DNA of 64,000 bases from Microbacterium sp. SLBN-146 (GTDB lineage Bacteria > Actinomycetota > Actinomycetes > Actinomycetales > Microbacteriaceae). Each line of letters begins with the position of its first letter. Within the stretch, counting starts at the first letter, position 1. Positions 1-34,213 of the stretch are shown piece after piece. Below the pieces are notes generated by a model. That model saw only the letters and a program-made list of their open reading frames with translations, ran no database searches and was not told where the DNA came from. A program made the translations under genes and the position numbers. The stretch covers positions 124,001 through 188,000 of the forward strand of contig NZ_VFMR01000001.1 in NCBI RefSeq assembly GCF_006715145.1, read 5' to 3'.

Positions 1-564
1 TCGGCCCTGGGACTCGGATCGGGTCGCGTGCTCGAGGCGACCGTCTCGCTGCTCGCACCCACGTCGGTCGACATCGCCCTCAGCGAGGACAGCAGCCTCA
101 TCGAGGGCGAGCCGCTCACGGTCATCGCGACTGTGACGGGCGAGGTCACCGACGGCACGGTCTCCGTGATCCAGGTGTCGGATGCTCGGGCCCGGTTCGC
201 CGCAGCGGAAGCCGCGGAAGACGTCGTGCTGGGAACGGCCGAGGTCGTCGACGGTGTCGCGACGGTGACGCTCGCCGAGGGTCTCGACGCGGGCTCGTAC
301 GCGATCGCCGCCCGCTTCGAGCGGACCGAGGTGGCTTCGGCATCCGTGTCGGACACACTCGAGTTCACGATCGTCGTCGCATCCGACGGCAGCGGCGGCG
401 GCTCGGGCACCGGCGGCACCCCGGCAGCGGGCGGGTCGAGCGGCCCCCTCGCCATGACGGGAGGCACCGGCATGCTCGGCTTCCTCCTCGCGGGTCTCAC
501 GATCCTGGGTGGTGGCATCGCCGCACTGATCGTCCGACGCCGCCGCGTCGCGTCGATCGGCTGA
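1..564 (+). CDS. C-terminal part of a cell-wall-anchored surface protein (5' end outside the window)
   Basis: The reading frame is open to the left edge of the window, so the true start is not visible; the GTG at 28 is only an internal valine codon. What is seen is a beta-rich, Ig-like segment (about residues 10-120), a Gly/Ser-rich spacer, then LAMTGG (bases 448-465), a hydrophobic helix (LGFLLAGLTILGGGIAALIV) and a terminal arginine cluster. This is the layout of a sortase sorting signal. The variant LAxTG, rather than LPxTG, is known as the preferred signal of class E sortases in high-GC actinobacteria, so the protein is inferred to be linked to the cell wall outside the cell. Its adhesive or enzymatic role cannot be told from this fragment. 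Confidence 0.75.
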   Translation, partial: SALGLGSGRVLEATVSLLAPTSVDIALSEDSSLIEGEPLTVIATVTGEVTDGTVSVIQVSDARARFAAAEAAEDVVLGTAEVVDGVATVTLAEGLDAGSYAIAARFERTEVASASVSDTLEFTIVVASDGSGGGSGTGGTPAAGGSSGPLAMTGGTGMLGFLLAGLTILGGGIAALIVRRRRVASIG

Positions 565-790: not shown

Positions 791-827
791 TAGCCTGAAG
801 CAGATGGATACGGACCAAGATGACTGA
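791..827 (+). promoter_or_regulatory. Candidate -10 box and seven-codon leader ORF ahead of the BLUF operon
   Basis: TAGCCT at 791-796 is followed after seven bases by an ATG at 804. That ATG opens a tiny frame (M-D-T-D-Q-D-D-stop, 804-827) whose end overlaps the start of the next gene by eight bases. The spacing matches the leaderless promoters seen at many other genes of this window. The inference is that translation may begin at the mRNA's first base on the mini-ORF and reinitiate at 820. No clear -35 box is visible. Confidence 0.35.
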
Positions 828-1032
828 TATCGCCGACGCTCTCTGGGCCCGCGTAGATGAAGGGTTCTACGTCGGGAGCCACAACGGAACATTCCTCGGA
901 TGCATCGAGGTGTTATCCGACGGACGATTCGCCGCCCTCGACGCACACACACGCCCGCTCAGCACGCACACGCGCCTCGACGAAGCAATGCACGCGGTGG
1001 CGTCTACGGGAGCCGACGGGTCGCGCGAATGA
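820..1032 (+). CDS. Small protein of unknown function coupled to the BLUF gene
   Basis: A 70-residue protein that I do not recognise as a named family. It has an aromatic and glycine-containing N-terminal half (WARVDEGFYVGSHNGTFLG), a central segment ending in a DAHTRP motif, and a helical tail; there is no signal peptide, membrane segment or cysteine pair. The start is fixed by the absence of other in-frame starts upstream; a strong ribosome binding site is missing. Its stop overlaps the ATG of the BLUF gene by four bases (ATGA, 1029-1032), so the two are very likely made together. It might be a partner or output of the light sensor, but that rests on position only. Confidence 0.6.
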   Translation: MTDIADALWARVDEGFYVGSHNGTFLGCIEVLSDGRFAALDAHTRPLSTHTRLDEAMHAVASTGADGSRE

Positions 1033-1490
1033 CGCGCTCCGCTCGCGACAGCACACTCTTCTCGCTCGTCTATGCGAGTACGGCGACTTCGCCGCTCGAC
1101 GACGACGCCCTCGCGGCGTTGCTGCACCACGCCCGTGAGAGCAACGCCGCGAATGACATCACGGGTCTCCTGCTGTACCGGAGTGGACGGTTCGTCCAGT
1201 TCCTCGAGGGCCCGGAGCACAGCATCCGCACCCTCTACGGCAAGATCGCGCAGGATCCGCGTCACAGCGGCATGCGAACGCTTGACGAAGGCAAACCGAC
1301 CGCACGACAGTTCGCGGACTGGACGATGGCGTATCAGCCCGTCGCAGATCCCTCGACCCCGCTTCCCCCGGGGTTTCGCAGCACGTTCGACGATCTCGAC
1401 AGCGCGAACGACGCCGACAATGTCCTCCGCGCGACGCGCGAGCTCAGTCTCTGGTTCCGGGTTCGCAATCGCCCGATCGCCCCGGCCTGA
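1029..1490 (+). CDS. BLUF-domain blue-light photoreceptor, short form
   Basis: A 153-residue protein that is almost wholly a BLUF domain, which binds FAD and senses blue light through a hydrogen-bond switch around the flavin. The key residues are all present with the spacing of well-studied BLUF proteins: Tyr15 (FSLVYAS), Asn39, Gln57 (GRFVQFLEG), Trp98 and Met100 (FADWTMAY). The ITGLLLY strand at 45-50 is also typical. Only about 45 residues follow the core, with no EAL, GGDEF or other enzymatic domain, so it should act by protein contact. The ATG overlaps the stop of the small gene upstream (ATGA), which suggests translational coupling. The partner is unknown. Confidence 0.9.
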   Translation: MTRSARDSTLFSLVYASTATSPLDDDALAALLHHARESNAANDITGLLLYRSGRFVQFLEGPEHSIRTLYGKIAQDPRHSGMRTLDEGKPTARQFADWTMAYQPVADPSTPLPPGFRSTFDDLDSANDADNVLRATRELSLWFRVRNRPIAPA

Positions 1491-13507: not shown

Positions 13508-13567
13508 GCCGAGAAGACCCAAACCGCGCCGAAATCGGCCCGGATACAACCGTTCGAGTCTTCTCGA
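13508..13567. repeat. Family 1 inverted repeat, copy 3
   Basis: GCCGAGAAGACCCAAACCG at the left and CGTTCGAGTCTTCTCGA at the right form imperfect arms. First member of a side-by-side pair with 13607-13667. Confidence 0.75.
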
Positions 13568-13606
13568 CGACGCGAGGCAGCCCCGACCGAAGACCCCGGG
13601 CCCTTC

Positions 13607-13667
13607 GCCGAGAAGACCCGAACTGCTCCCGAGAGAGCGAATTGGCGACGGTTTGAGTCTTCTCGGC
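13607..13667. repeat. Family 1 inverted repeat, copy 4
   Basis: GCCGAGAAGACCCGAACTG at the left and GACGGTTTGAGTCTTCTCGG at the right. The outer 11 bases of each arm match perfectly, the inner part does not. Second member of the pair. Confidence 0.75.
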
Positions 13668-19179: not shown

Positions 19180-19240
19180 GCCGAGAAGACCCGAACCGTC
19201 CGATTTCGGCGTCCGCGCCAGCAGTTCGAGTCTTCTCGGC
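19180..19240. repeat. Family 1 inverted repeat, copy 5
   Basis: GCCGAGAAGACCCGAACCG on the left and CAGTTCGAGTCTTCTCGGC on the right, imperfect in the inner part. Pair partner of 19301-19361. Confidence 0.78.
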
Positions 19241-19300
19241 ATCCGTACCCTCACCGTGCCGGGCCGACCCTCGCGCCGCGCCGCCGCCCGGCGCCCCGCT

Positions 19301-19361
19301 GCCGAGAAGACCCGAACTGCGCGATTCCGCGGCGAAAGGCCGCAGTTCGGGTCTTCTCGGC
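19301..19361. repeat. Family 1 inverted repeat, copy 6
   Basis: Perfect 21-base arms at 19301-19321 and 19341-19361 with a 19-base loop; core CGAGAAGACCCGAACTGC. Close to the start of the polymerase gene, so it cannot be a simple downstream terminator of that gene. Confidence 0.85.
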
Positions 19362-34044: not shown

Positions 34045-34105
34045 GCCGAGAAGACCCGAACTGCGTACTTTCGGACCCAAACCCGACGCTCTGCGTCTTC
34101 TCGGC
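34045..34105. repeat. Family 1 inverted repeat, copy 7
   Basis: GCCGAGAAGACCCGAACTGC on the left and CTGCGTCTTCTCGGC on the right; the outer 11 bases pair perfectly. Its right half is shared with copy 8, so the two arose together. Confidence 0.78.
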
Positions 34106-34154
34106 AACCGGGCGCCGGGCCTCGGGCACCGGGCTCAGGCCGAACCTCGGGATC

Positions 34155-34213
34155 CGAGAAGACCCGAACTGCGCGGAATTGGGCCCGAGAACGACGTTCT
34201 GCGTCTTCTCGGC
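34155..34213. repeat. Family 1 inverted repeat, copy 8
   Basis: CCGAGAAGACCCGAACTGCG on the left and TTCTGCGTCTTCTCGG on the right. Both copies 7 and 8 are followed by CAACCGG, supporting a local duplication. Confidence 0.78.

Follow-up and report, generated by a model that had tools for sequence, protein, structure and literature searches.

A short BLUF photoreceptor and its overlapping upstream small gene in Microbacterium sp. SLBN-146: a candidate two-protein light-sensing module

Introduction

The locus described here raises the question of what a photoreceptor without an output domain acts through. In Microbacterium sp. SLBN-146 the gene of a short BLUF protein is preceded, on the same strand and with an overlap, by a gene for a small protein of 70 residues, and the start of that gene is in turn overlapped by a seven-codon open reading frame (ORF). 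The original prediction, made from the letters of the window (the whole stretch of 64,000 nucleotides that was analysed), saw in this arrangement a possible compact light-sensing pair, with the small protein as effector, behind a leaderless transcript. Here we compare the locus with its counterparts in the genus, the family, and the class, and consider which of its elements are likely to matter and in what role.

Results

The BLUF protein. The product of the downstream gene (Table 1) matches the BLUF profile PF04940 over its full length (positions 1-92 of 92) with 102.5 bits and an E-value of 1.3e-29, the curated cut-off of this profile being 25 bits. Residues Y15, N39, Q57, W98, and M100 line up with residues of Slr1694 in the alignment; the Tyr, Asn, Gln, Trp, and Met at these positions, which we take to be the flavin-switch residues of BLUF, are invariant in all 80 BLUF rows that have a partner gene. 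The AlphaFold2 model (pLDDT 87.8, 40-row alignment) ends in two C-terminal helices, and a Foldseek search with this model retrieved Tll0078/TePixD at the top, followed by Slr1694, BlrB, and BlsA, with E-values from 1e-12 to 1e-9 and with pairings that cover almost the entire chain. Given the profile score, the switch residues, and these whole-chain matches, the protein belongs among the ordinary short BLUFs of the PixD/BlrB/BlsA type: it carries a short helical cap and lacks an output domain. The original prediction was therefore right in crediting it with all flavin-switch residues and in finding no room for an output domain. It is the sole BLUF match in the source genome (contig of 3,608,896 bases).

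Table 1. Features of the locus and of the repeats around it (window coordinates, except for protein parts, which are residue numbers)
Feature	Position	Strand	Basis
Long hairpin built on GAGAAGACCCGAAC, flanking the gene pair	656-712
TAGCCT, putative -10 element; gap to ATG804 of 7 nt	791-796	+	read in sequence
Seven-codon ORF MDTDQDD, overlapping the small-gene start; stop at 825-827	804-827	+	read in sequence
Small gene, 70 aa, conserved upstream partner gene of BLUF	820-1032	+	sequence; genus scan; AF2
ATGA shared by small-gene stop and BLUF start	1029-1032	+	read in sequence
BLUF gene, short photoreceptor, 153 aa	1029-1490	+	PF04940; AF2; Foldseek
BLUF protein, BLUF domain	residues 10-101		PF04940
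BLUF protein, C-terminal cap helices	residues 119-125, 129-147		AF2 model
Further hairpin built on GAGAAGACCCGAAC, on the other side of the pair	1686-1772
Further GAGAAGACCCGAAC matches	13511-13623, 19183-19358, 34048-34169

The small protein. The upstream product had been called a protein of no recognised family, and this was borne out: it has no Pfam or NCBIfam match, with Pfam searched up to an E-value of 10. The best Pfam score among 39 relatives was to BA14K (E 0.023), which we read as chance. PF25355 (DUF7882), which enters below through its gene neighbourhood, matched neither the protein itself (E up to 10) nor the 39 relatives (E up to 1), and PHROGs and PADLOC returned nothing useful. 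Across its alignment of 39 diverse members, 4 positions are invariant and another 9 nearly so; the AlphaFold2 model of the protein, at pLDDT 88.2, consists of five beta strands plus a helix at the C-terminus. Foldseek found no solved structure for this model at an E-value of 0.001 or below, and when the small-protein alignment was used as a profile against the sequences of solved structures, it gave six matches, the best at E 0.51. With a second structure aligner, VIA-align, the best score was Z 5.5, reached by an AP2 DNA-binding domain; another AP2 domain scored 5.0 and a tyrosinase caddie 5.1. Folds as unrelated as the methane monooxygenase inhibitory subunit, AP2, the caddie, and OspA all fell at Z 4-5.5, which is within the noise of a tool whose own note says that Z below 8 means little; a fold family for the small protein is thus neither claimed nor excluded.

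Several of the partner proteins at other loci (e.g. L015, L024, L086, L090, and L103) end in a short motif such as ITLEQVR, IVLRQV, LELRQTR, or IELRQV, which might form an added strand; the motif is missing from the protein of this locus.

The gene junction. The ATGA said to join the two genes is present (Table 1), and the same step of one base back from the small-gene stop to the BLUF start is seen in 55 of 68 distinct pairs. The other junctions are TGATG (8 pairs), a start 5 bases back (1 pair), and a start 13-17 bases on (4 pairs), and in total the start and stop codons overlap in 64 of the 68.

Conservation of the pair. A sample of 198 genomes of the genus contained 104 with the small protein and 65 with BLUF. 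By coordinates, the small gene lies directly upstream of BLUF on the same strand at 70 of 77 BLUF places, and every one of the 65 BLUF-bearing genomes has at least one such pair. This adjacency is far beyond chance, which, with a few small-protein genes per 3.5-Mb genome, we estimate would produce it at far less than one in a hundred per genome. The seven BLUF places that lack a partner, one of them a fragment, are all found in genomes that keep a second, partnered BLUF: among the 11 genomes with multiple copies, a partner stands at every copy in four (G001, G051, G086, and G153) and seven have a copy without it.

The wider family gives a different picture. BLUF occurs in 72 of its 299 genomes and the small-protein profile matches 106, and a partner was found at only 14 of 115 BLUF places, belonging to the genus of the window and four other genera. 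No partner was matched at the other 101, and the ORFs upstream of 28 of these, read by eye, include no similar gene. One BLUF copy (L137; G462:C116, about 345 kb) is decayed, being broken by an in-frame stop; the small gene that precedes it has diverged, and its genome has three other pairs. At the class level the small-protein profile (threshold E at most 1e-6) matched 5 of 246 genomes, all from the same family. A pair is found outside this family in Demequina sp. NBRC 110053 (L166; family Demequinaceae), which may point to transfer. Moreover, the small-protein family has a life of its own, as 80 of the 150 places listed do not adjoin a BLUF gene. The expectation that the small gene is conserved next to BLUF genes thus holds within the genus and fails for most of the wider family, and what stands is a compact module of two genes, kept throughout the genus and in some related genera, in which the small protein is the obvious candidate for the partner. 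The commonest of the flanking ORF groups occurs in 19 of 68 loci, and no third module gene is common to more loci than that; with so little of the flanks in common, the pair is the unit that is kept.

Descent of the partnered BLUFs. We placed 114 BLUF rows in a maximum-likelihood tree, for which the tool gave a warning that the columns are few. The 80 partnered rows fall into one clade (support 100/99), together with 6 unpartnered ones. The partner label changes 4 times on this tree, compared with a mean of 29.5 for shuffled labels, a pattern that fits one gain and three losses of the partner; the starred branches force only three changes. Each of the six unpartnered rows of the clade is a second copy, and its genome has another BLUF with a partner.

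We also considered the cap as a possible place of contact. Thirteen cap positions conserved in the partnered BLUFs are kept there at a mean of 0.97, compared with 0.62 in the six unpartnered rows of the clade and 0.54 in 28 outside rows. However, the nearest unpartnered relatives (L138, L150, and L153) keep 12-13 of the 13 residues, so the signal follows descent, and one unpartnered copy within the clade (L047) keeps all 13. The cap residues were therefore dropped as a partner-specific interface.

The upstream region. The original prediction placed ATG804 exactly at the start of a leaderless transcript, and called the tiny ORF a seven-codon leader. The ORF does overlap the small gene, and both TAGCCT and the ATG are in place, but the spacing is slightly off. 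Of the 68 pairs, 24 have a TANNNT hexamer 5-6 nt ahead of a start codon of the small gene (6 nt in 21, 5 nt in 3), and in these relatives the gap is never 7-11 nt; by this rule, with the gap of 7 seen here, the transcript would begin one base before ATG804. From the same 24 pairs it seems likely that leaderless messages which begin directly at the small gene are common in the genus. A Shine-Dalgarno-like site is present in 34 of the 68 pairs, four of which have both signals, and 14 pairs, this locus among them, have neither by these patterns. No sigma-70 consensus promoter was found in the region 560-1860, and Rfam gave only sub-threshold matches there, mostly of microRNA models on the flanking hairpins, which we read as chance.

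An out-of-frame ATG or GTG at 5-8 nt after TANNNT occurs in 7 of the 68 upstream regions, including this one. The ORFs of the six other cases run from 1 to 200 codons with no common length or sequence, and some of them (L025, L050, and L085) overlap the small-gene start too, which suggests that the leader-like placing recurs by accident. The closest relatives, found by DNA comparison among 366 genomes (L184 and L185, with the small protein 64% and BLUF 62% identical), have AAAGGACGAGC followed by ATGATG, that is, a start from a Shine-Dalgarno site; these start codons share the frame of ATG820 and precede the position aligned to it by 6 and 9 nt. The leader ORF was looked for in these two and in L186, and is absent from all three. 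A functional seven-codon leader peptide, or an operon controlled by it, was accordingly rejected as unsupported, and the ORF is most safely taken for an unproven feature that is private to this genome.

In three of the BLUF copies that have no partner (L082, L108, and L112), a TANNNT read by eye lies 6 nt before the ATG of the BLUF gene itself, for which reason these genes look leaderless.

Hairpins around the pair. The two hairpins that flank the gene pair have arms that are 100% and 91% complementary, with folding energies of -53 and -62 kcal/mol and z of -8.1 and -7.4. Their core, GAGAAGACCCGAAC, has 13 matches with up to one mismatch in the window, compared with 0.03 expected, and looks like a repeat family of the REP type.

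Paralogues and DUF7882. The source genome has a second member of the small-protein family, of 110 residues, at 658.5 kb (L062 4916-5586; G000:C1 about 658.4-659.1 kb). It shares an ATGA with an upstream DUF7882 gene, carries a C-terminal hydrophobic tail, and has two genes for MarR-type regulators nearby. DUF7882 recurs at the orphan loci of the small-protein family: a match is adjacent in 17 of 19 counted (14 on the same strand, 3 divergent), or in 17 of 20 when the orphan of L081 is counted. A hydrophobic C-terminal stretch, defined by a 19-residue mean of 1.47 or more, is present in 13 of the 19 paralogues, compared with at most 1.34 in the 68 BLUF partners. The paralogues of L072, L077, and L080 have no tail and are divergent from the DUF7882 gene, and that of L072 (4606-5354) overlaps a MarR-type gene.

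DUF7882 itself is present in 183 of the 198 genus genomes, in up to 20 copies, five of them in the source genome. According to PMC12227055, PF25355 was deposited to cover putative cytoplasmic transducers of CryoRhodopsins, small proteins whose genes adjoin or overlap the rhodopsin gene. Among the 13 rhodopsin loci examined out of 43 such places in the family, 7 have a DUF7882 match and none has a member of the small-protein family. No rhodopsin was found in the source genome by a search that matched 37 of 150 family genomes, nor by an earlier one run without a positive control. These data amount to a neighbourhood link between two sets of small proteins coupled to photoreceptors, and are no proof of a common pathway.

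Discussion

Lacking an output domain, the BLUF protein has to hand its signal on to another protein. We lean, on balance, towards reading the pair as a two-protein light-sensing module in which the small protein is the dedicated partner of BLUF, a reading based on gene order, overlap, conservation, the common descent of partnered BLUFs, and the predicted folds. The short BLUF would bind flavin and sense blue light, and the small five-strand/helix protein, presumably made from the same message, would be bound by it. The overlapping genes would couple translation, so that both proteins are made together and the small one first. Light may then reshape the BLUF domain and the cap in a way that alters the hold on the small protein, or on a complex of it with a target, and the small protein would pass the signal on. 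There are precedents for such a course of events: according to PMC5899715, PixD works through PixE, which it holds in the dark and releases in the light, and according to PMC5955987, BlsA binds Fur in the dark. By analogy with PixD/PixE and BlsA/Fur, we infer that binding, its dependence on light, and a next step probably exist for the present pair as well. The unpartnered BLUFs in the family and in multi-copy genomes, the small proteins away from BLUF, and the lack of an informative structural neighbour all count against the partner role.

The chief rival, which we regard as unlikely, is a helper role of the caddie kind: the small protein, translated first, would aid the folding, flavin loading, or solubility of BLUF and carry no light signal. 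It would account for the order of the genes and for their overlap in nearly all distinct pairs, and a tyrosinase caddie does stand among the weak structural neighbours, at a score that unrelated folds reach equally. Against it, 101 of the 115 family places, as well as the six copies within the clade, have a BLUF without the small protein; the argument from the six is softened by the chance that they use the partner of the second copy. Nor does the helper role fit easily with family members encoded away from BLUF.

Still more doubtful is an effector that binds nucleic acid or a regulator and is held back or released by BLUF, as with other BLUFs that act together with repressors. The weak similarity to AP2 domains and the paralogue overlapping a MarR-type gene speak for it, although such Z scores mean little, no DNA-binding family matches the protein or its 39 relatives, and the hydrophobic tail of most paralogues is ill-suited to DNA binding. 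That the upstream ORF serves BLUF expression chiefly at the level of translation, with a product that matters little, is very improbable in spite of the tight start/stop coupling and the further tiny overlapping ORF, given the conserved positions of the protein and its confidently predicted fold.

The partner role in the module has a possible extension, which we put forward tentatively and hold to be rather improbable as a whole. Small adaptors of this bacterial family may plug into different light sensors, DUF7882 into rhodopsins and the small protein into BLUF, and the MarR-linked and membrane-tailed paralogues coupled to DUF7882 may form a common downstream layer. A shared network of adaptors, of which we found no description, would in that case receive one of its light inputs from the BLUF/small-protein pair.

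For most short BLUF proteins, we know of no interaction partner. Here one small gene is locked to a photoreceptor across dozens of species, so that the question of the partner can be put to a direct test with two proteins that are small and probably soluble. Should they bind each other in a way that depends on light, the pair would also be a compact natural light switch. The neighbourhood of the paralogues and DUF7882 hints that one common bacterial family may have a broader set of light-signalling parts. The BLUF protein is of a known kind, and the partner family, the locked gene arrangement, and the link to DUF7882 did not turn up in the literature; the search found no paper on the pair in the open-licence literature, which is weak evidence of absence.

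Several known systems resemble the pair in part. The tyrosinase caddie of the MelC1 type is a small helper encoded upstream of its client, and is thus similar in gene position and, weakly, in fold; it differs in giving no sequence match in the solved-structure search, and its Z score is in the range of chance arrangements. PixD (Slr1694, TePixD/Tll0078), BlrB, and BlsA share with the BLUF protein of this locus the domain, the switch residues, the C-terminal helical cap, and the lack of an output domain. Their partners, in contrast, are unrelated to the small protein, PixE being like a response regulator and Fur being bound by BlsA, and the available parts of PMC5899715 and PMC5955987 describe no small protein whose gene overlaps that of BLUF. 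Finally, DUF7882 differs in that its profile PF25355 does not match the BLUF partner, which in turn is absent from the 13 rhodopsin loci examined, and, according to PMC12227055, resembles it in the very feature from which this study started: a small protein encoded beside, or overlapping, the gene of a photoreceptor.
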